This document shows positions 11,914 through 22,743 of a stretch of DNA of 64,000 nt, one piece after another; position 1 is the stretch's first letter, and each line of letters starts with the position of its first letter. A program made the position numbers and the translations under genes. A model generated the notes under the pieces. The model had not been told where the DNA came from. It did not search any database and saw only the letters and a list, made by a program, of their open reading frames with translations. The stretch is taken from the NCBI GenBank assembly GCA_900258555.1, contig LT984857.1, positions 447,795 through 511,794 of the forward strand, given 5' to 3'. This stretch comes from an uncultured Desulfobacterium sp. GTDB taxonomy: Bacteria > Desulfobacterota > DSM-4660 > Desulfatiglandales > Desulfatiglandaceae.

Positions 11914-12639
11914 CTACTCCGTCAGATAAAATGTGATCGTTGTCACAACACCGACATCCTTTTCTATTTTTACCGTGTCTCCATAATCCTCTCCTGCATC
12001 ACGTATATAAAAGCTCCCCTGCCTTGCACTTCGGATACCACCGACTTTGACCCCGGCATTTTCTGCAAACTCGGTCGCGGCAATGCGGGCGTTTTTTGTG
12101 GCCTCACGGAGCATTTCAGGCTTAATTTCATTGAGTTTGGTGAAACGATAGGTCGGCGCCATGTTCTTTATGTCTATCCCCTGCTCAATTAATTTGTTCA
12201 CATTAGCGCGCACCTTGCCCACCAGCTCAACCTTATTAGTCTCTACACTTATGTTGCCGACCAACTTATGGGTCTGATCAACAAGCATTTGTTTATCATC
12301 GCGGAATTCCAGATATTCATAGTCCAGGACCCCCAGTCCTATTTCATTATCTGTGAATCCGCTTTCCCTCAGCAGGCCGATAATTGTTTGTTGGTGTTGT
12401 TCGGCCTCCTTATACAGTCTTGGAATGTCCTCCCGGCTCGTCCCTGACACAGCGAAGGAGATCTTCCAATTGGCGCGGTCGGCAGATACACGCCTTTCAG
12501 CCAGACCCTTTGCCTCTGCCGTGTTAAGGGCAACCTTGGCGTTATACATGGTCTGTCCGATAAAATAGCCCGCCAGGGCCAAACCTGCAGCGACAAACAA
12601 CCCGAAAAAGAAAAAACCTCCCTGATTATCCCTGCTCAT
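11914..12639 (-). CDS. SIMPL-domain (DUF541) periplasmic protein
   Basis: A 241-residue protein with one N-terminal membrane segment (GGFFFFGLFVAAGLALAGYFIGQ) followed by the SIMPL/DUF541 domain: an N-terminal strand with RRVSADRANWKISFAVSG, a helix with an EHQQTIIGLL core, and a C-terminal half with AATKNARIAATEFAENAGVKVGGI. Family members are predicted periplasmic proteins, often with envelope-stress links, but no biochemical role is settled. The ATG at 12639 is preferred over 12651 because GGAGG lies just upstream of it and inside the longer version. It follows the M29 aminopeptidase gene by ~50 bases on the same strand and is probably the last gene of that operon. Confidence 0.85.
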   Translation of the reverse strand: MSRDNQGGFFFFGLFVAAGLALAGYFIGQTMYNAKVALNTAEAKGLAERRVSADRANWKISFAVSGTSREDIPRLYKEAEQHQQTIIGLLRESGFTDNEIGLGVLDYEYLEFRDDKQMLVDQTHKLVGNISVETNKVELVGKVRANVNKLIEQGIDIKNMAPTYRFTKLNEIKPEMLREATKNARIAATEFAENAGVKVGGIRSARQGSFYIRDAGEDYGDTVKIEKDVGVVTTITFYLTE

Positions 12640-12690
12640 ATAATCCTCCATAGCTTATCCCTGTTTCTGTGATTAGCCTATGTTGCCTTG

Positions 12691-13809
12691 TTATTTCAAA
12701 TTTTCCGGATTAAGGGGGATTAAATCATCAACCACAAAAATGCCGTCCTTGCGGATCAATTCTCCGTCGAAATAGATCTCACCGCCGCCGAATTCCGGCG
12801 TCTGCATGAGCACCATGTCCCAGTGAATGTCGGATTTATTGCCGTTATCCGCCTCCTGGTAGGCGCTGCCGGGCGTGAAATGGATGGAACCGGTGATCTT
12901 TTCATCAAACAATATATCCTTCATCGCCTTTGTGCAGTGGGGATTGAGCCCAATGGCGAATTCCCCCACATAACGGGCACCTTCGTCCGTATCCAGTACT
13001 TCGTTAAGTTTGGCAGTATTTGAGCCTGTCGCCTCGATTATCTTTCCGTCCTTAAACACCAAGCGGATGTCATTATGGGTCGTACCGTGGTAAATTGTTG
13101 GGGCATTGTAATGGATAACGCCGTTTACAGAGAGCTTAACAGGTGCGGTAAAGACCTCCCCGTCCGGGATGTTGAGTTTTCCATCACATCCTATGACCGG
13201 CATTCCCTTAATGGAAAAGGACAGATCCGTATCGCGGGGGCCTTTGATATGGACTTGATCGGTATTTTCCATCCGGGCGATCAGCGGCTTCATGCCATTT
13301 GACATCTTCTTAAAATCCATGGTGCAGACATTGAAATAGAAATCTTCAAATGCCTCAGTGGACATCTCCGCCATCTGGGCCATGGAGGAGCCGGGCCAGC
13401 GAAGTACAACCCAACGGGTGTTGGGAATGCGGACACCGACATGCACACGGTTCCAGACCGTTTTTTCATAGATCTTCTGAAGCTCTCCGGAGACGTCGGA
13501 CAATTCGCTCACATTGGGATTGCCCCGTGCCCCGATGTAACACTGGACATTTTCCATAACCAGTTTTTCCGCGTCAGCAACCAATTCCCACCCTTCATAG
13601 GTGCCGTTTTTCATGAGGGATCTGCGGATCTGATGGGAATCCAACTTGACAATGGGAATTGCGCCTGCCGCTCTTGCCAGACGAATGCATTCGCAGGTAA
13701 ATTCATGAGGCACATCTATGGCCTCAATCAGAATCCTTTCCCCCTCCCTGACCTCGCATGAGTAGTTTATCAAGACGTCGGCCAGTCGTGTAATACGAGG
13801 ATCGAGCAT
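12691..13809 (-). CDS. M29-family metallo-aminopeptidase
   Basis: A 372-residue cytosolic aminopeptidase of the AmpS/PepS (M29) family, which removes N-terminal residues using two metal ions. The ligand regions are visible: NIPDGEVFTAP near residue 220, a second glutamate in GEFAIGLNP near 287, GSIHFTPGSAY near 314, and SDIHWDMVL near 330, with a late DGEL loop. The length fits a slightly short family member. A GAGGAGATATT site precedes the ATG. It sits 9 bases after the GH26 lipoprotein gene in the surface-glycan operon; whether that is functional or only shared transcription is unknown. Confidence 0.9.
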   Translation of the reverse strand: MLDPRITRLADVLINYSCEVREGERILIEAIDVPHEFTCECIRLARAAGAIPIVKLDSHQIRRSLMKNGTYEGWELVADAEKLVMENVQCYIGARGNPNVSELSDVSGELQKIYEKTVWNRVHVGVRIPNTRWVVLRWPGSSMAQMAEMSTEAFEDFYFNVCTMDFKKMSNGMKPLIARMENTDQVHIKGPRDTDLSFSIKGMPVIGCDGKLNIPDGEVFTAPVKLSVNGVIHYNAPTIYHGTTHNDIRLVFKDGKIIEATGSNTAKLNEVLDTDEGARYVGEFAIGLNPHCTKAMKDILFDEKITGSIHFTPGSAYQEADNGNKSDIHWDMVLMQTPEFGGGEIYFDGELIRKDGIFVVDDLIPLNPENLK

Positions 13810-13818
13810 AATATCTCC

Positions 13819-14943
13819 TCAACGGCCTTTAAGTACCGGCCGGTCCAGCCAAAATGGGTTGGAGATCTCCTTGCGGTATGCAGCAAGGGACTGTGGAGAG
13901 GAGTTTACCCGAAGGTTACTGTAGCTTAAGTCGCTGTTCTGCCAGCGCTCGTGCCAGAAGACAGCGGCCTTTAAACGGGGGAACTCCTTGGACATGCGGC
14001 TTAGGGCTTCTGTAATAAACGCCGCCTTGCTCCCGCTTTTGGGAAACTCTCCCACTCCCCACTCTGCAAGGATAAAGGGTTTATCCGGGTCGAGCGCACA
14101 GATCTCCTTGTAGAACTTCGGCAGCACGATCTCAAACTCGGTCCACTTCTCTGTGTTCGGGTATTGCTTGCCGTAAGCGCTGAGCCCCAGCCAGTCAACA
14201 TACTCGGCCCCGGGCCAGTAATTGGCCATACGGTTCCAGTGCTCATCAGGCTCTGATGTGTTGTTTGGGTGAAACACCCAGGCGATATTGTCCGCCCCTT
14301 GCGCCCGCACACGGTCCACTACATGTCTGTAAGCCTTTTTGAACAGTTCAGGGCCCTGAAAGAGCGGGGGATCTGTCCCGGGAACAGGCCGTCCGCCTCC
14401 GTAGAAAAAACCGGACCATGGAAACCATGTCCCGTTCATCTCAAGGCCCCACGATACCAGCATGGGTGCTCCGAACTGCCTTGCCTCCTGCGCCCACATG
14501 TCAATGTAATTATCCCACTTGCCTTCAACAATATTTACCAGGCTGAAGCGGTCCGGCTTCATGTCCCCGGCAGGAGGCCCGTCCCAAGGGTTCCAGTATA
14601 TCAGCGCCACCGCACCATATGCATAGACCACCTGCAAGGCCTCTTTGGGGAACGACTGTTTGGCCCAGTAACTGGAAAATCCTATGACTGCCTGTCTCTT
14701 TCCCACCAGTGCATCAAACGACTCAATGGCCTCCAGTGTAACATCATCTTCTGTGGGGCCAAAGTCTATATATGCCCCTGTATACGCCTGGGCCTCTGGC
14801 AAGGCCAGCGCCATTTTCCCCGGCTGACTGACCGTGGGGGCAATTTTCTGTTCATCAGGCTCAGAGGAACATGCATATGCGCCTAGCACAATAAATGCCC
14901 CCAGAAAGGCCATGGATATATAAATCGGGGAAAACATCTTCAT
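13819..14943 (-). CDS. GH26-like glycoside hydrolase, probable lipoprotein
   Basis: A 374-residue exported protein. The N-terminus has a hydrophobic stretch ending LGAYAC-SS, so Cys25 is a plausible lipidation site although the -2 Tyr is atypical. The rest reads as a GH26 (beta-mannanase-type) TIM barrel. The acid/base region is SWGLEMNGTWFPW with Glu168, and the nucleophile region is FILAEWGVGEF with Glu294. These are the two signatures of the family. Its start overlaps the stop of the big fusion gene by 4 bases (ATGA), so translation is coupled. Synthase-dependent polysaccharide systems normally carry such a periplasmic glycanase; the sugar here may be mannan-like or something else, which the sequence alone does not settle. 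Confidence 0.85.
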   Translation of the reverse strand: MKMFSPIYISMAFLGAFIVLGAYACSSEPDEQKIAPTVSQPGKMALALPEAQAYTGAYIDFGPTEDDVTLEAIESFDALVGKRQAVIGFSSYWAKQSFPKEALQVVYAYGAVALIYWNPWDGPPAGDMKPDRFSLVNIVEGKWDNYIDMWAQEARQFGAPMLVSWGLEMNGTWFPWSGFFYGGGRPVPGTDPPLFQGPELFKKAYRHVVDRVRAQGADNIAWVFHPNNTSEPDEHWNRMANYWPGAEYVDWLGLSAYGKQYPNTEKWTEFEIVLPKFYKEICALDPDKPFILAEWGVGEFPKSGSKAAFITEALSRMSKEFPRLKAAVFWHERWQNSDLSYSNLRVNSSPQSLAAYRKEISNPFWLDRPVLKGR

Positions 14944-17900
14944 CCCTTCGTTACTCCTTTGTCTACATCCTGCGATATATGTTCAACAGAATAAAACGGC
15001 ACAGTGCCTCTTCTCTCCTGCCTTCCCCAGCCGACCCACACACCCCGCAGGGCGCGGAACAGCGAACGCCACACAGCATAGCTCAAAAGCGGCCTGTAGA
15101 TCAGTCTCATCGGAATTATAGCCCATGCAGTGCGTAGTCTCTCTCCTTCCATCATGCATGCTACCAAAGCCAGCACCAAATCAAGAAGGATAAACATCAG
15201 GGCGTATTCTGCAATAGCCCCTCCAGCGCCCGTTACAAGGGAGGCAATCAAAAGCGCATCAACAACCGGGACCAAGGCCACCAGAAAAACGTGACAGAAC
15301 CATACAGTAGGAAGGCTGAAAAATGCCAGGGCACTGTAAGCGGGGTCAAAGAGCATATCAATATGCTTAAACAGGCACTGAAGTGTTCCAAAGGCCCACC
15401 TGGTCCTCTGTCTTATAAGGGCCTTGACCGTCTCCGGGGCCTCTGTCAGCCCTATTGCCCCATCAGAGTAACGGATCTTGTAACCATGTCTGTGCATGTT
15501 CAGTGTCATGTCCGTATCCTCGGCCAGTGTCTCTGTCGGTATACCCCCTGACTTTAAGACAGCGCTGCGCCTTAATGCGCTCACCGCACCCGGTACGACC
15601 GTGATGCAGTTTAGGACATCGTAGGCGCGGCGGTCAAGATTGAACCCGCATGTATATTCAAGTGACTGAAACCGGCCTATCCATGTGCCAAGGTTTCCCA
15701 CCCTGGCATGCCCTGATACGGCGCCCACATCATTGTCCGCAAAAAATGCGACAAGCCTTCCTATGGTATCCCGGTTGAAGTGGGTGTCGGCATCGAGTGT
15801 GATGATATATTCATTTTCTGTCGCCTCAAGCCCTGCGTTCAGGGCACTGGCCTTGCCCTTGTTCTCCTGGCGCACCAGACGAACGCGGGGATCCGCAGCC
15901 GCGATATCCTCTACAATCCTGGCAGTGTTGTCGGTTGATCCGTCATCCACTACAACCACCTCAAGTTTGCCCCGATATGCGGTATCCAGCACTGAAAGCA
16001 ATGTGGCCCGGATAAGCTTGGACTCGTTAAAGGCCGCAATTATGACTGACACAGGCTCAGTGATTGAATATGTATCTGTAATGGTTTCCTTCCATAGTTT
16101 GTGCCGCACTGCAAAGACAAGGACAATCAGGGTACGAAAAAAGACTATCGCAGTGCTTGCTATCATAAAGGCCCAGGCAAGTTCTTCCAGGATATGCAGG
16201 ATCTTAAGGCCTGTCTGTGCCACAAGGCGGGACTGGTAAGGGTCGTCTTTTGGTATGGGAGGCATGAGGGAGTCCACTGGTACACTGATAAGAGTGTTCA
16301 AGGGAACGATCTCATCGCCGCGCATACGCAGGTAGTCAATGACTGCAGGCAGGGCCTCCACTGTCTGTGAGCGGTCGCCGCCCGCATCATGCAGCAGCAC
16401 GATATTGCCTTCACGTCTGCTATCCTTGACCAGGTCAAGGATAGCCTTTGTTCCTGGTTCTTTCCAGTCTTCAGCATCAATACTTGCGCTGACAGGCATA
16501 TAACCCAGGCCCTGGGCGTCAACCAGGGTCATGAACTCCTCGATTGACTGCGGCAAGCGATCCGCGTTATAGGGCGGCCGAAACAGTACCGTGGATCTGC
16601 CGGTGATTCCCTCAATCAGTCTTTGGGTTGCATTGAACTCAAGCTGAAGCCTTGCCTGAGAGATCCTGCCCAGGTCCGGGTGGCTGTAGGTGTGATTGCC
16701 TATCTCGTGACCTTCGGCTGAGATGCGCCGCACCAGATCCGGGTGGGATTCAGCGTTTGACCCGGTTATAAAAAAGCCCGCCTTGACACCCTTTTGCCGT
16801 AGGATATCCAGGACCTTCGGGGTCCACTCGGGATTGGGGCCGTCATCAAATGTTATAGCGACCTGATCTCCTCGGCTTTCACCCTGGTGGTAAAGTAGCG
16901 GATATTTCGGATATCGAACATAAATGGAACTCCAAAGGCCGGTTTCATCCTGACTTATATTACGAAGCCCTTCAGCAGTTTCATTTACTGCGGTAAGGAA
17001 GTCACCCTTACCGATGTTGCTGATGGCCTTTGTTGCCTTCATCTCTTCAAAGGAACCGGGCTCACAGAAATTGACGCAGTTAAAGGTGTCCCACACCTGC
17101 GGGTCCTCTGTTCCCATACGCCAAAGTGCGACACCTCTGACACCTTTTTTTTCGGCCTCGAATTTTTGATTGCGAAAGCTGATGGCATCCAGGAACCAGA
17201 CTGAATGATTTAATCCATCAACCACATAGTCAAAATGGGGGCCGTCATAAGGCGCCATGTTCTCTATTCTGGTCTCCCCTGCGGAATTGGCCCGAGCCAT
17301 CGAGTCCGGGAAGCTAAGAGTTTGCGGCGTTTCTCCTGCCTGCCAGTCATAGCCGTATGAACCTATACCGATCACCAGTTGGCCGGGGGGAATTTTATCC
17401 GCAAGCACGTCCAGCCATTCTTTGAACCAATTATGTGAGGCCAGAGGGCCCGGCGGGTCTTCCTCTCCTGTCTCGTCGTAGAGCATTGCCACAAATCGGT
17501 CAACCACGGCGGGGAGTTTATCCAGATCAAAGATCTTGATGTCGTTACCCACCGGTATACAGAGCCACAGCTCAAGGTCCTTATGCATCAGATTTTCATG
17601 CATCCTGCTGAAGAACAATGTAAGCTCCTGCTGGTAGGTCGGGTCAACCTGTTCAAAGTCAACCACCAACCCCTTTGCGCCTATCTTTGTAAGCCTGTCG
17701 CAGAGCTTGGCAAAAAAGCGGTCCTGGATCTCTTCGTCCGAAAGGATCAGGGCCTCCACCGCCTCCGGTTGCCACTGATCTATCTTGAGATTGCTCATAA
17801 GCGGCAGCAGAGCTATACCGTGGGCCTCGGCAATCCGGCAGACCTCTTCGTCGGGTTCGCTATCCAGCATGGGCGGGGTCCCTGCCAGGGTGAACCACTC

Positions 17901-18365
17901 GGGGCATAGATGGGTCAATTTATCCGCATGGTTGATAAGAGAGAGATAGCTGTTTTTGTCCCAGTTGACATAATAGCCCAGCCTCACGGGACGTTGATCA
18001 CCGGGGTTGACAAATGCCCCTTTAACCGCACTAGGGGAAGCAGGCTTATTAAGCAGCCAGGCCGGTGGAGGTTCAGGGCTGTGGACAGCAGTCTCAGACC
18101 TGGTTATGGCCTTCAGTCTGCTGGTCATGTTATGGACCTTGTCCAATTGCTGAAGACGGGGCAGAATAAGCAAAGATCGGATAAACAGAATAAGCGCAAT
18201 AAATGAAACAAACACAACAATGAAGGAGGTTAGCCGGAACCTAGGCCAGCGTTTGCCCTTCATGTCCAGAAATATGAAGTTTTTTTTATCCACGTGGTTA
18301 ATTCCAAAGCTTAAGCCTGGGCCATCTGCCTGCACTAAGATAGGAGGGTAGACAGGCTGAGTCAA
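14940..18365 (-). CDS. Three-domain fusion: GH18-like / NodB polysaccharide deacetylase / GT2 synthase
   Basis: A 1141-residue inner-membrane protein joining three enzymes. One membrane helix (about 46-68) anchors a periplasmic GH18-like domain (about 127-435) whose active-site strand reads GLVVDFEQV, with Glu238 as the candidate acid. Next is a NodB deacetylase (about 500-690) with TFDDGP (D507, D508), the H558-x3-H562 metal pair, RPPYN and LLHD. Another helix (about 728-752) leads to a family 2 glycosyltransferase (about 770-1000) with VVDDGS, DAD (858-860), AEDTD and QRTRW, then several helices. This is the logic of poly-N-acetylglucosamine systems (PgaB plus PgaC) in one chain. The start is a TTG with AAGGA upstream; an ATG at residue 35 is an alternative. 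Confidence 0.92.
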   Translation of the reverse strand: MTQPVYPPILVQADGPGLSFGINHVDKKNFIFLDMKGKRWPRFRLTSFIVVFVSFIALILFIRSLLILPRLQQLDKVHNMTSRLKAITRSETAVHSPEPPPAWLLNKPASPSAVKGAFVNPGDQRPVRLGYYVNWDKNSYLSLINHADKLTHLCPEWFTLAGTPPMLDSEPDEEVCRIAEAHGIALLPLMSNLKIDQWQPEAVEALILSDEEIQDRFFAKLCDRLTKIGAKGLVVDFEQVDPTYQQELTLFFSRMHENLMHKDLELWLCIPVGNDIKIFDLDKLPAVVDRFVAMLYDETGEEDPPGPLASHNWFKEWLDVLADKIPPGQLVIGIGSYGYDWQAGETPQTLSFPDSMARANSAGETRIENMAPYDGPHFDYVVDGLNHSVWFLDAISFRNQKFEAEKKGVRGVALWRMGTEDPQVWDTFNCVNFCEPGSFEEMKATKAISNIGKGDFLTAVNETAEGLRNISQDETGLWSSIYVRYPKYPLLYHQGESRGDQVAITFDDGPNPEWTPKVLDILRQKGVKAGFFITGSNAESHPDLVRRISAEGHEIGNHTYSHPDLGRISQARLQLEFNATQRLIEGITGRSTVLFRPPYNADRLPQSIEEFMTLVDAQGLGYMPVSASIDAEDWKEPGTKAILDLVKDSRREGNIVLLHDAGGDRSQTVEALPAVIDYLRMRGDEIVPLNTLISVPVDSLMPPIPKDDPYQSRLVAQTGLKILHILEELAWAFMIASTAIVFFRTLIVLVFAVRHKLWKETITDTYSITEPVSVIIAAFNESKLIRATLLSVLDTAYRGKLEVVVVDDGSTDNTARIVEDIAAADPRVRLVRQENKGKASALNAGLEATENEYIITLDADTHFNRDTIGRLVAFFADNDVGAVSGHARVGNLGTWIGRFQSLEYTCGFNLDRRAYDVLNCITVVPGAVSALRRSAVLKSGGIPTETLAEDTDMTLNMHRHGYKIRYSDGAIGLTEAPETVKALIRQRTRWAFGTLQCLFKHIDMLFDPAYSALAFFSLPTVWFCHVFLVALVPVVDALLIASLVTGAGGAIAEYALMFILLDLVLALVACMMEGERLRTAWAIIPMRLIYRPLLSYAVWRSLFRALRGVWVGWGRQERRGTVPFYSVEHISQDVDKGVTKG

Positions 18366-18525
18366 GATCCTTCAAGCCCTTTACTGGCTTATCCTCAAGG
18401 TACTGTGGAGAAATCTCATGGTCTTTGAATTCATATGGACAAAGACGGCGCACTTGCCTATACTACCGCCACCTTATTGCAGACCGCTGTTTTTTCTATC
18501 CCCCTTTAAACAGGACCAAAAGCCC

Positions 18526-19743
18526 ATGTCAGATCCGGAAATCCTGCAACTTAAGATTGATCCCTCCATGAAGTCCCTGAGACCGATTAGACGAAGACGC
18601 CGGCTGTACGCGGCGCTGGCATTGTGCCTTGCTGCCCTTCTGCTGCTGTTTTTTAAAAGACAGACTATCTTCGCAGTACCGGTTGAGGTGGTGACCGCCA
18701 CCCGGCTCTACCCTTCCCAAACCCTTTCCCTTCTTTATGCAAGCGGTTACGTGGTTCCACAAAGAAAGGCCGCAGTGGCCTCCAAGGTGACAGGAAGGCT
18801 GGTTGAACTCCTGGTGGAAGAAGGGACCAGGGTAAAAAAGGGGGATGTGGTGGCAAGGCTCGAAGATGACGACGTGCTTGCACAAAAGGCCCAGGCGGAG
18901 GCCAATGTCAATAACGCCGCCTTTCAACTTGATTCGGCAAGGGCCGCACGAAAGGAAGCGGACATCCTCTTTGAAAGGGACAGGAGGCTCGTGGAGAAAG
19001 GGGCGGTTTCCATGATACAATTTAGGCTCTCAGAGGCCAATCTTAACAGGGCAGCGGCAGCGGTCAAGGCCGCAGAGGCAGGGCTTGAGGCAAGCAGGGC
19101 AGCCTTAAAAAACGCACTTGTCGCCCTGGAATACACCAGAATACTTGCCCCCTTTGATGCGGTAGTGCTCACAAAGGATGCGGATGTCGGTGATATCGTC
19201 ACCCCCATTGGTTCGGCCGTGAATGCAAAGGCGGCGGTGGTTACCATTGCAGACATGGATAGCCTGGAGGTCGAGGCGGATGTCTCCGAGACCAACCTGG
19301 CCAGGGTCAAAATCGGGCAACCCTGTGAGATCATGGTGGATGCCATCCCGGACGTCCGCTTCAGGGCCGCTGTGCACATGATCGTGCCTACGGCGGACCG
19401 TTCAAAGGCATCTGTAATGATCAAGGTGCGCTTTCTGGATAAAGATCCCCGTATACTCCCGCAGATGAGTGCAAAGGTAAATTTTCTGACCAGAGAGCTC
19501 GGTCCGCAGGATCAGACGCCTGTAACCGTGGTCTCGAAGACCGCAATCGTCAATAAAAAAGACCGATCCGTTGTGTATTTTATCCGTGGCGAGAGGGTTT
19601 CGGAAGCTGTTGTGGAGACCGGCAAGGCATGGGATGACCTTGTCGAGATCAGAAAGGGCCTTGGGTCCGGCGACAAGGTAGCAGTCGCAAAGGATGGAAG
19701 ACTTAAAGACCGGACGGTTATTAAAGTTATTGAAAAGGAATAA
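18526..19743 (+). CDS. Periplasmic adaptor of a MacAB-like ABC exporter
   Basis: A 405-residue membrane fusion protein. A basic N-terminus (RPIRRRRR) precedes one membrane helix (LYAALALCLAALLLLFF), then the lipoyl half (AAVASKVTGRLVELLVEEG), a long alanine-rich helical hairpin with a QAEANVNNAAFQLDSARAA pattern, the returning lipoyl half (ILAPFDAVVLTKDADVGD) and the barrel domain. I prefer the ATG at 18526; an in-frame ATG at 18418 would add 36 residues unlike any adaptor. The stop codon overlaps the start of the ATPase gene by one base. It works with the next three genes to move a substrate across the envelope. Confidence 0.9.
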   Translation: MSDPEILQLKIDPSMKSLRPIRRRRRLYAALALCLAALLLLFFKRQTIFAVPVEVVTATRLYPSQTLSLLYASGYVVPQRKAAVASKVTGRLVELLVEEGTRVKKGDVVARLEDDDVLAQKAQAEANVNNAAFQLDSARAARKEADILFERDRRLVEKGAVSMIQFRLSEANLNRAAAAVKAAEAGLEASRAALKNALVALEYTRILAPFDAVVLTKDADVGDIVTPIGSAVNAKAAVVTIADMDSLEVEADVSETNLARVKIGQPCEIMVDAIPDVRFRAAVHMIVPTADRSKASVMIKVRFLDKDPRILPQMSAKVNFLTRELGPQDQTPVTVVSKTAIVNKKDRSVVYFIRGERVSEAVVETGKAWDDLVEIRKGLGSGDKVAVAKDGRLKDRTVIKVIEKE

Positions 19744-20462
19744 TGTCAGGCGAATCCACCATTGTTAAGGTAAGGGACCTGAAAAAATCCTACCAGAGGG
19801 GCGGGCTTCCGGTCCCGGTTTTACACGGGATCAGCCTGGATATCAAAGAAGGAGATTTTCTTGTCCTGATGGGCCCGTCCGGTTCCGGAAAGACCACACT
19901 CCTTAATATAATTGCCGGGATAGACAGAGCGGACAGCGGCACCGTGACCGTGGGGGGCATTGAGATCGGGGACTTGACCGAGGCGGAACTTGCTTTCTGG
20001 CGCGCAAACCATGTGGGTTTTGTCTTTCAGTTCTATAACCTGATTCAGGTGCTGACCGCCATTGAAAATGTGGAACTGCCCCTTCACCTGACATCTCTGC
20101 CGGGATCTGTGCAGAGGCAGCATGCACTATTGGCCCTAAACCTGGTCAATCTGGGTCACCGAATCCACCATTACCCCTCCCAATTATCAGGAGGAGAGCA
20201 GCAACGGGTGGCCATTGCAAGGGCCATTGTCACAGACCCGACCATCCTGGTGGCTGATGAGCCCACAGGCGACCTGGACAGGACATCTGCAGAAGAGATC
20301 CTGGACATCATGCAGGGGCTCACTCAAGAGATGGGAAAGACCATCATAATGGTAACCCATGATCCCAGGGCGGCCAGGAGGGCGAAGATTATAAAGCACC
20401 TGGACAAGGGGTTTCTGAACAATGCTGATCTACAAGATCCTGATAAGGAATGCCTTCCGTAA
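19743..20462 (+). CDS. ABC transporter ATP-binding protein (MacB/LolD-like)
   Basis: A 239-residue ATPase. Walker A is GPSGSGKTT (44-52), followed by a Q-loop in GFVFQFYNL, the signature [14 protein letters not shown], Walker [13 protein letters not shown] and the switch histidine in VTHD. The LDRTSAEEI segment after Walker B is typical of the MacB/LolD branch that powers mechanotransmission exporters rather than importers. Start and stop overlap its neighbours (1 base upstream, 41 bases into the first permease gene), showing a tightly coupled operon. Confidence 0.95.
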
Positions 20463-21579
20463 CAGGTTGCGCGCCGCACTCACTGTCATAGGTATAGGGG
20501 TCGCCATACTGGCCTTCTGTCTTTTGCGGACCATTGTAGGCGCATGGTATGCAGGCGTGGAGGCCTCCTCGGCCACAAGACTTATCACCAGAAACGCCAT
20601 ATCCATAATATTTCCCCTCCCCCTCTCATATATGGAAAGAATTCGGCAGATAGAAGGGGTTGAAATGGTGTCTTACGGAAACTGGTTCGGGGGCATATAT
20701 ATTGATGAAAAAAATTTTTTCCCCAACTTCTGTGTAGATCCTGAGACCTATCTTGGACTCTACCCTGAGTTTATGTTGAAGGATTCGGAGAAAACGGCCT
20801 TTTTTAGGGACAGAAAATCCTGTATCGTAGGCAGGAAGCTTGCCACCCGCTTCGGTTGGAAGGTAAACGATATTATCACACTAAAAGGCACCATATTTCC
20901 CGGCAATTGGGACTTTGTCGTGCGCGGCATATACGTGGGTCGAGATCAGACCATTGATGAGACCCAGTTCTTTTTCCATTGGGACTATTTAAATGAAGAG
21001 TTAAAAAAAACCGGCCACGAATGGGCGGATAACCCGAATTTTTACATCGTAGGCGTAAAGAGGCCTGATTATGCAGCGACCGTTTCCGACACCATTGACC
21101 GGATGTTTAAGAATTCATATGCAGAGACCTTAACAGAGACAGAGAAGGCCTTTCAACTGGGTTTTGTCGCCATGACCAGCGCCATTGTCTCTGTAATCCA
21201 GGTCGTATCCTTCATGGTGATTGTAATAATAATGGCGGTGGCTGCAAACACCATGGCCATGACCACCAGGGAGAGGATAGGAGAGTATGCAACCCTTAAG
21301 AGCCTTGGCTTTGGGCCCAAGCACATAGCCACACTGGTCTTCGGGGAATCCGCAGTCATATCCTTATCCGGTTATATACTGGGGATAGCAGCCACATACC
21401 CGGCAGCGGATAAGTTCAGAACGGAGCTGGGGCACATCTTCCCGGTCTTCAACGTGGAGATTAAAACGGTTTTTTTCGCCCTGCTGGCAGCCATTGCTGT
21501 CGCCATTGTGGCAGGCATCGTGCCGACCGTCAGGGCTGCCGGAATAAGTATCGCCGATGGATTAAGGAGAATGGGCTAA
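20422..21579 (+). CDS. MacB/FtsX-type ABC permease, first copy
   Basis: A 385-residue permease with the MacB architecture: one helix near the N-terminus (ALTVIGIGVAILAFCLL), a large periplasmic domain (about residues 40-250), then three helices (VVSFMVIVIIMAVAANTMAM, then two near the C-terminus). The cytoplasmic loop after helix 2 holds the family motif RERIGEYATLKSLGFGPKHI, the coupling site for the ATPase. The gene begins inside the end of the ATPase gene. It pairs with the following permease, so the exporter is probably a heterodimer. Confidence 0.92.
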   Translation: MLIYKILIRNAFRNRLRAALTVIGIGVAILAFCLLRTIVGAWYAGVEASSATRLITRNAISIIFPLPLSYMERIRQIEGVEMVSYGNWFGGIYIDEKNFFPNFCVDPETYLGLYPEFMLKDSEKTAFFRDRKSCIVGRKLATRFGWKVNDIITLKGTIFPGNWDFVVRGIYVGRDQTIDETQFFFHWDYLNEELKKTGHEWADNPNFYIVGVKRPDYAATVSDTIDRMFKNSYAETLTETEKAFQLGFVAMTSAIVSVIQVVSFMVIVIIMAVAANTMAMTTRERIGEYATLKSLGFGPKHIATLVFGESAVISLSGYILGIAATYPAADKFRTELGHIFPVFNVEIKTVFFALLAAIAVAIVAGIVPTVRAAGISIADGLRRMG

Positions 21580-22743
21580 TTGCATATCCCCATATTTTAC
21601 AGCATCAAAAATCTGTGGACCAGGAGGCTCACCACAATTCTTACAGTTGCCGGCATGGCCCTGGTGGTCTTTGTCTTCGCGGCCATCCTGATGCTGGCCG
21701 AGGGGCTGGAAAAGACACTGGTGGATACGGGTTCATATGATAATGTTGTTGTGATCAGAAAAGGCTCCGGCTCAGAGGTCCAAAGCGGCATCGAAAGGGA
21801 AAAGGCCGCTATCCTTCAGACCCTCCCGGAGATCGCCACTGCAGGTCAGGGGCAACCCCTTTCAGCAAGGGAGATGCTGGTACTGATCAGCCTGCCGAAG
21901 AAGGCTACAAAGAAGCTATCCAATGTCGCAGTACGGGGCATTGAACAGACATCCCTGACCCTCAGGCCCCAGGTACGGATCACTGAGGGCCGGGCGCCTC
22001 AATTCGGCGCCTTGGAGATTATGGTGGGAAAGAGTATTGTCAAACATTTTTCCGGCATGGCGATCGGGCAGAGTCTGACATTCGGGATGAGGAGATGGCG
22101 GATTGTAGGCATATTTGATGCCGGAAACACCGGCTTCAACTCGGAGGTCTGGGGGGATGTTGACCAGATGATGCCGGCCTTCAGAAGACCTGTATATTCA
22201 TCTGTCATCTTCAAACTAAGGGATGCAACTACTTTCTCTCAGGTAAAATCCCTCATTGACCGTGACCCGCGCTTAAGCCTGGATGCCAGGAGGGAGACCC
22301 AATATTATAAAGATCAATCCGAGATGATGGCAAAATTTCTTCGCATCCTTGGAACATCACTTACCATTATCTTCTCTATCGGCGCAACCGTAGGAGCGAT
22401 GATCACCATGTATTCCGCGGTGGCCAACAGGACAAGAGAGATAGGGGTCTTAAGGGCCCTTGGATTTCCAAGGAAGAGCATCCTTTCAGCCTTTCTGATC
22501 GAGGCCATGCTGTTCGGGGTTTTAGGAGGCGCATTCGGACTCTTCTTTGCATCCTTCATGCAGTTGATCACAGTGTCAACTCTCAACTTCCAGAGTTTTG
22601 CAGAGCTGTCCTTTTCCTTTACCCTCTCATCAAAGATAGCCTCTCAGGCAATGCTGTTTTCCATATTCATGGGGTTTGCAGGGGGCCTTCTGCCCGCCAT
22701 ACGGGCCTCGCAAATGAAGATCGTGGACAGCCTCAGGGCCTAG
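21580..22743 (+). CDS. MacB/FtsX-type ABC permease, second copy
   Basis: A 387-residue partner permease starting with TTG directly after the stop of the first permease, with AAGGAG 8-10 bases upstream. It has the same plan: helix near residues 16-38, a periplasmic domain, and three C-terminal helices with the coupling motif RTREIGVLRALGFPRKSIL between them. Two different permeases, one ATPase and one adaptor form a complete MacAB-like inner-membrane unit. Such systems export lipoproteins, peptides or lipids, or use force to act on the envelope; the substrate is unknown here. Confidence 0.92.
   Translation: MHIPIFYSIKNLWTRRLTTILTVAGMALVVFVFAAILMLAEGLEKTLVDTGSYDNVVVIRKGSGSEVQSGIEREKAAILQTLPEIATAGQGQPLSAREMLVLISLPKKATKKLSNVAVRGIEQTSLTLRPQVRITEGRAPQFGALEIMVGKSIVKHFSGMAIGQSLTFGMRRWRIVGIFDAGNTGFNSEVWGDVDQMMPAFRRPVYSSVIFKLRDATTFSQVKSLIDRDPRLSLDARRETQYYKDQSEMMAKFLRILGTSLTIIFSIGATVGAMITMYSAVANRTREIGVLRALGFPRKSILSAFLIEAMLFGVLGGAFGLFFASFMQLITVSTLNFQSFAELSFSFTLSSKIASQAMLFSIFMGFAGGLLPAIRASQMKIVDSLRA

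Follow-up and report, generated by a model that had tools for sequence, protein, structure and literature searches.

The locus lies on the reverse strand of a 64,000-nucleotide stretch of contig LT984857.1 from an uncultured Desulfobacterium sp., which we call the window and whose numbering is used throughout. It comprises two overlapping genes, one encoding a multidomain fusion synthase and one a putative exported GH26 glycanase:

14940..18365, reverse strand: fusion synthase, 1141 amino acids from a TTG, with an N-terminal transmembrane (TM) segment, GH18, NodB/CE4 and GT2 with TM helices
17112..17978, reverse strand: GH18 domain, residues ~130-418 (PF00704, 43.3 bits), with a DFE motif at residues 236-238
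16566..16880, reverse strand: NodB-type CE4 deacetylase domain, residues ~496-600 by Pfam (PF01522, 125 bits), to about residue 693 by NCBIfam
15387..16049, reverse strand: GT2 synthase domain, residues ~773-993 (Pfam; AF2 model, pLDDT 86), followed by C-terminal TM helices
14940..14943, reverse strand: ATGA stop/start overlap joining the fusion (TGA) to the GH26 gene (ATG); the forward strand reads TCAT
13819..14943, reverse strand: predicted exported GH26 glycanase, 374 amino acids, ATG start, with E168 and E294, WHERWQN at 330-336, and S164 and L167 in an RxxHE position

The product of the smaller gene scores 50.5 bits against the Pfam GH26 profile PF02156 (curated cut-off 20.2) and is the only PF02156 match in its genome. 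The folds nearest to its AlphaFold2 model (pLDDT 88.6) are GH26 structures, with a (beta/alpha)8 barrel. E168 and E294 are the catalytic glutamates of GH26, and the preliminary description was right about both of them, as it was about the four-base overlap. They are kept in 49/49 alignment rows, and in a larger set the acid/base E168 is present in 71/71 rows and the nucleophile E294 in 70/71. The exception (L089, the same place as L174:5924-7210) is the second, unlinked copy of GH26 that genome G344 carries, with R in place of the nucleophile Glu. Moreover, the WHERWQN stretch is a near-invariant signature of the GH26 relatives. The same description had termed the protein a lipoprotein. Its N-terminus is hydrophobic (residues 2-27) and ends in ...LGAYA-C25, a weak lipobox, and a rough lipobox pattern matches 24/48 relatives, including some visibly false matches. 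Thus, an export signal looks general across the family, whereas lipidation does not look general and is only plausible.

To judge from homologues, translation of the fusion probably begins at a GTG near 18290. Its hydrophobic stretches lie at residues 41-72 and then near 725-757 and 1011-1075, flanking GT2, with two soluble domains between. This pattern fits an arrangement in which GH18 and CE4 would face outwards from the inner membrane and GT2 inwards, so that an inner-membrane synthase and a modification enzyme predicted to be periplasmic are found on one polypeptide. The CE4 and GT2 motifs are intact. In NCBIfam searches the best models are PdaB/NodB for CE4, with scores below the cut-offs, and PgaC/IcaA for GT2 (TIGR03937), whose 192.4 bits against a cut-off of 422.3 do not make the domain a PgaC/IcaA equivalog. 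Hyaluronan synthase (Z 33.7) and the mannosyltransferase PcManGT (Z 32.7) tie as the folds nearest to the GT2 model, and the donor sugar is therefore left unsettled. The GH18 domain has the cortical-lytic enzyme 4s3j as its nearest PDB entry and SleL/YaaH-type proteins as its nearest relatives.

An M29 metalloprotease gene (12691-13809) starts 9 bases downstream of the GH26 gene and is followed by a SIMPL-domain gene (together 11914-13809, reverse strand); this arrangement does not recur in relatives. About 50 bases from the fusion ORF on the other side lie divergent MacA/MacB-like ABC exporter genes (18418-22743, forward strand) encoding a periplasmic adaptor, an ATPase and two FtsX-type permeases. 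A Pfam scan of 10 window proteins detected no TPR/outer-membrane pore gene, and none of the window neighbours was reported by Pfam to have a c-di-GMP-binding domain.

Distribution and inheritance of the pair

Searching genome contigs with the GH26 protein as the query yielded 47 loci (48-86% identity), whose records name Desulfobacteraceae and other delta lineages, Competibacteraceae, Thiocystis, Thiobaca and many Verrucomicrobia. For 42 of the 48 GH26 ORFs at these loci the fusion lies directly upstream on the same strand, including one pair separated by a gap of ~0.8 kb (L024), and the in-frame ATGA overlap is found in 22 of these 42 adjacent pairs. In three of the six ORFs without an adjacent fusion (L022, L037, L041, L052, L053 and L056) the GH26 gene is located at a contig start (L022, L052 and L053), and all six genomes carry a fusion elsewhere. 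Clustering of the neighbouring ORFs gave no third gene family in more than 9/47 loci, and we therefore take the conserved unit to consist of two genes; only the fusion and the GH26 gene recur over the 47 loci. A larger operon, with the M29 peptidase downstream or the ABC exporter genes upstream, was rejected, as no third gene recurs beyond a single nine-locus clade. In this clade of Spartobacteria (Verrucomicrobia), hisD, folP, cdaA (diadenylate cyclase) and, where the contig reaches far enough, glmM lie after the pair (L039, L042, L045, L046, L047, L050, L051, L052 and L054). GlmM feeds UDP-GlcNAc. Further copies were also seen: one Verrucomicrobia contig has two fusion-GH26 pairs in tandem (L034:3-9077), and Thiocystis violacea (G445) has an unlinked second GH26 of the same family (L150:1384-2511), the translations of whose flanking genes contain CxxCH motifs.

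We then surveyed whole genomes, calling fusions at E 1e-60, so that weaker ones are uncounted, and strong GH26 matches at 485 bits or more. Among 395 genomes of the window's own phylum the fusion is found in 15 and a strong GH26 in exactly the same 15, all other genomes scoring at most 329 bits. By coordinates 13 of these pairs are adjacent, one is split over contig ends (G421) and one lies on two contigs (G305). The phylum of the Spartobacteria locus L016 (240 genomes) has the fusion in five genomes and a strong GH26 in the same five, all adjacent. In the order of Thiocystis (147 genomes) ten genomes have the fusion, and a strong GH26 is present in eight of these and nowhere else; in G708 and G810 the two genes are on separate contigs. 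Over the 782 genomes of the three samples all GH26-bearing genomes thus have a fusion (28/28), and Fisher tests for the 395-, 240- and 147-genome samples, which treat genomes as unrelated, give 2e-27, 2e-10 and 1e-11. Chance neighbourhood is ruled out by this co-occurrence in all three samples and by the fusions found elsewhere in all six genomes that lack adjacency. A wider sample of 324 genomes from the phylum of Thiocystis contained seven fusion genomes, six of them new, with 37-45% identity to the window fusion. The GH26 search here covered the six divergent fusion genomes, G738, G822 and five plasmid records, and it gave no match to a window-type GH26 in the six new genomes nor in G738 and G822. 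Fusions at least 50% identical to that of the window are accompanied by GH26 in 26/26 sampled genomes, those at 37-45% in 2/10.

A tree of the fusion was inferred from its CE4-GT2 columns (78 rows), leaving out entries below 200 bits, 31 entries that were shorter than 700 amino acids or identical, two short sequences (L032 and L073), a duplicate (L063) and the window itself under a second label (L058). It recovers the 64 GH26-linked fusions as one clade (support 100, stem 0.56). The fusions of G708 and G810 fall outside this clade, and their GH26s are found among Chromatiaceae-type GH26s. Distances between GH26s correlate with those between fusions (r 0.78; 65 rows, L034 excluded; reached in 0/2000 permutations). 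The window, L011, L012 and L060 group with gammaproteobacteria with a support of 95 (starred) in the GH26 tree and of 94 (not starred) in the fusion tree. Moreover, the gamma genome G794 lies within the same five-row own-phylum clade in both trees (100 and 95, both starred), which suggests that fusion and GH26 move together as a pair. Simple vertical heritage was weighed, and the two trees make joint transfer likely, not proven. The preliminary description had proposed that the GH26 protein may be the dedicated glycanase of the synthase, naming conservation of the pair in other genomes as a check. Adjacency in 42/48 cases and the 28/28 genomes show such conservation, and the conserved pair, its co-occurrence and the congruent trees support the proposal.

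Loss of GH18 residues and DUF3131 neighbours

Within the clade of GH26-linked fusions the CE4 residues we checked are kept in 64/64 members, as are those of GT2 except for one Asp, which is D in 53 and N in 11. The GH18 domain, in contrast, is decaying. Its catalytic Glu is kept in 27/63 members and lost in 36/63, for which the tree requires 13 changes or more, and just 5/63 retain the whole triad of D, E and Tyr. The window is one of these five (DFE plus Tyr), and the hand-over to GH26 proposed below therefore need not have occurred in this species. Outside the clade the triad is intact in 9 of 12 readable rows. For the Glu the difference between clade and outside is weak (27/63 vs 9/12, p 0.06); for the triad the contrast is stronger (5/63 vs 9/12), with rows treated as unrelated in this comparison. 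In G708 and G810 a GH26 is present together with a fusion from outside the clade, and the GH18, readable in G708 only, is intact there.

Three non-clade fusions that have lost the GH18 Glu (Sulfitobacter L109, G914 and G946) each adjoin a gene for a DUF3131 protein of 816-857 amino acids:

L109:8559-11096: DUF3131 protein, four-base overlap
L160:8521-11094: DUF3131 protein, four-base overlap
L161:11874-14324: DUF3131 protein

In the fetched stretches around the loci, over which DUF3131 was searched, its profile matched neither the window nor any other locus except the second locus of G914. With three cases, uncorrected for kinship, this is a lead rather than a rule. It is possible that the DUF3131 protein acts as a glycanase partner of the fusion. 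The open-licence papers listed for DUF3131 were incidental ones.

The GH26 active site and the polymer

Among solved enzymes the lichenase CtLic26A from Clostridium thermocellum is closest to the window GH26, both in sequence (E 3e-28, mannanases 1e-7) and in structure (Z 35.8, rmsd 1.7, 32% identity over 271 residues, mannanases at most Z 26.6), the structure ranking having aligned only top-ranked Foldseek matches, so that families it does not rank are not thereby ruled out. The enzyme thus does not place with dietary mannanases, in line with what the preliminary description expected of a dedicated glycanase, and a dietary or mannan-type GH26 was rejected on this ground and on that of its active site. 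Where CtLic26A reads LRPLHEANG, the window has VSWGLEMNG, and the RxxHE signature of CtLic26A-type lichenases is missing; a Pseudarthrobacter lichenase-like GH26 (E 4e-45 to CtLic26A) and CtLic26A itself both keep it. Around the acid/base residue most relatives read [SA]xx[LNCI]E: position 164 is S, A, V or T and position 167 is L, N, C, I, V or F, never H, so that the usual Arg and His of subsite -1 are absent in 71/71 rows. The accessible text of a study of BoMan26B lists its R197 and H200 among the subsite -1 residues of GH26 mannanases (PMC6556568), and this pair, by which a GH26 beta-mannanase would be recognized, is not found in the window family. According to the same text the HE motif is thought of as defining GH26, yet it is not kept in all branches, as those named xylanase and 'unknown' lack the His (PMC6556568). 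Since accepted branches lack it too, its absence does not by itself exclude membership in GH26. In the Thiocystis order, one genome encodes a more distant GH26 that lacks the HE motif and follows a Polysacc_lyase domain (PF14099; L147:1477-3951), and L146 has a similar long frame.

The preliminary description had taken GH26 to imply a beta-mannan-like or mixed-linkage polymer rather than pure GlcNAc and saw a conflict with the NodB-type deacetylase. Because the mannanase subsite -1 Arg and His are absent throughout, the mannan implication is not supported and the polymer specificity is unreadable from the family name; hence there is no conflict. We suggest that the loss of Arg and His would make room for a 2-amino or 2-acetamido group.

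We consider it probable that the two genes constitute a minimal unit for making and trimming a surface polysaccharide of the GlcNAc/GlcN type, composed of a GT2-CE4 synthase and a GH26 endo-glycanase that largely replaces a decaying GH18. The GT2 domain, to judge from its hyaluronan-synthase-like fold, would polymerise the chain and extrude it across the inner membrane. The CE4 domain, predicted to be periplasmic and carrying its motifs on the same polypeptide, would deacetylate the chain, which the exported GH26, given its pair of catalytic glutamates, would cut as an endo-glycanase. Within the clade the role of the fused GH18 would largely have passed to GH26. As to the polymer, a beta-linked chain containing GlcNAc/GlcN is most likely, because the relatives of GT2, CE4 and GH18 act on GlcNAc-type substrates and because the GH26 lacks the usual subsite -1 Arg and His. 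The sum of the PgaC/IcaA score, the fold, the GH18 kin and the glmM context favours such a polymer.

Several observations speak against this reading. The nearest characterised GH26, CtLic26A, is a glucanase, and the GT2 fold is as close to PcManGT as to hyaluronan synthase. Removal of O-acetyl groups is also within the reach of CE4 enzymes. Moreover, no outer-membrane pore was found next to the pair, the GH18 of the window keeps the residues checked, and in G708 and G810 the GH26 goes with a fusion from outside the clade. The polymer might instead be a neutral mixed-linkage (beta-1,3/1,4) glucan or an O-acetylated gluco(manno)glycan, cut by a lichenase-like GH26 and stripped of O-acetyl by CE4. 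We regard this as unlikely, since the subsite -1 Arg and His that both lichenase-type enzymes keep are lost in the whole family, GT2 and CE4 match PgaC/IcaA and PdaB/NodB best, albeit below the cut-offs, and the GH18 is nearest to SleL/YaaH-type enzymes. Retaining GH families can transglycosylate, and the GH26 protein could, instead of being a pathway hydrolase, act as a transglycosylase or anchoring factor, attaching the completed polymer at the envelope or remodelling it there. Some GH26 copies look lipidated and the unit has no pore, which would suit such a role; nothing specific argues against it, and the two glutamates, together in 70/71 rows, fit either activity, but we give it a low probability. 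A beta-mannan-type polymer with a GH26 mannanase is very improbable. In its favour, the two large branches of the GH26 tree are filled by all the characterised beta-mannanases (PMC6556568), but mannanases are clearly further from the window enzyme than the lichenase, in sequence as in structure, and it lacks their subsite -1 residues.

Relation to known systems

The proposed GlcNAc/GlcN unit resembles the PNAG system (PgaABCD; GT2, CE4 and GH153) in that a single pathway combines a GT2 synthase with a CE4 deacetylase and a glycoside hydrolase. In PNAG synthesis PgaB deacetylates the polymer and the PgaB hydrolase cuts it once deacetylated (PMC5933820). By analogy, we propose a PNAG-like logic in which GT2 would synthesise and extrude the chain, CE4 would deacetylate it and GH26 would trim it. 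Unlike in PNAG, GT2 and CE4 form one protein, the fused hydrolase is a GH18 and not a GH153, and the GH26 is separate; moreover, neither a PgaA pore nor PgaD was found adjoining the pair, and the PgaC_IcaA model scores below its cut-off. Glycosyltransferases fused to a PgaB-like deacetylase, without pgaA or pgaD, have been described in which a pore could not be detected and a canonical glycosyl hydrolase domain is lacking; they were seen as a possible new way of regulation and export (PMC7112194). Whereas the main text of that study, as far as accessible, does not contain the terms GH26 or GH18, the fusions studied here have a predicted hydrolase partner in trans. The canonical synthase-dependent loci covered there have a pore gene (PMC7112194). 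The fusion-GH26 unit would work like a synthase-dependent system, but we do not file it as a member because it has no pore gene.

CtLic26A shares the catalytic Glu pair with the window GH26, of which it is the closest solved structure; unlike it, CtLic26A keeps RxxHE, and the window family has [SA]xx[LNCI]E together with the WHERWQN loop. WpsE of Actinoplanes is another GH26 whose gene belongs to a cluster for exopolysaccharide biosynthesis, but the pathway there depends on Wzx/Wzy and not on a GT2-CE4 synthase fusion (PMC13390465). Finally, sequence matches at 32-36% identity indicate the same domain order in plasmid fusions of Sphingobium, Deinococcus, Prevotella, Sulfitobacter and others. 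Of five such records scanned, four have no match to a window-type GH26; the Sulfitobacter plasmid, whose fusion has the DUF3131 gene next door, has one weak match of 31.5 bits (L159, NZ_CP084953.1, 72412-72693), ~18 kb from its GH18-CE4-GT2 fusion. Among the open-licence papers listed for precedents of the GH26 or of GH18-CE4-GT2 and for glucosaminoglucan sheaths, none was seen to describe the fusion-GH26 pair.

More tentatively, with somewhat less than an even chance in our view, these observations may point to a replaceable hydrolase. As the GH18 of a GH18-CE4-GT2 synthase decays, an unrelated enzyme would be recruited in trans, either a new amino-sugar-specific GH26 subfamily (WHERWQN, no HE motif), in one lineage over several phyla, or, in another lineage, a DUF3131 protein as a predicted glycanase, giving a new minimal, pore-less exopolysaccharide unit. 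This would offer a first functional guess for DUF3131. The pair provides a function by association for uncharacterised GH26 enzymes of delta lineages, purple sulfur bacteria, Competibacteraceae and Spartobacteria, and a warning that GH26 does not mean mannan. The two-gene locus can be tested in the cultured strains Thiocystis violacea DSM 207 and Thiobaca trueperi DSM 13587, and its GH26 may be the missing hydrolase for the glycosyltransferase-deacetylase fusions that the accessible text of PMC7112194 leaves without one.
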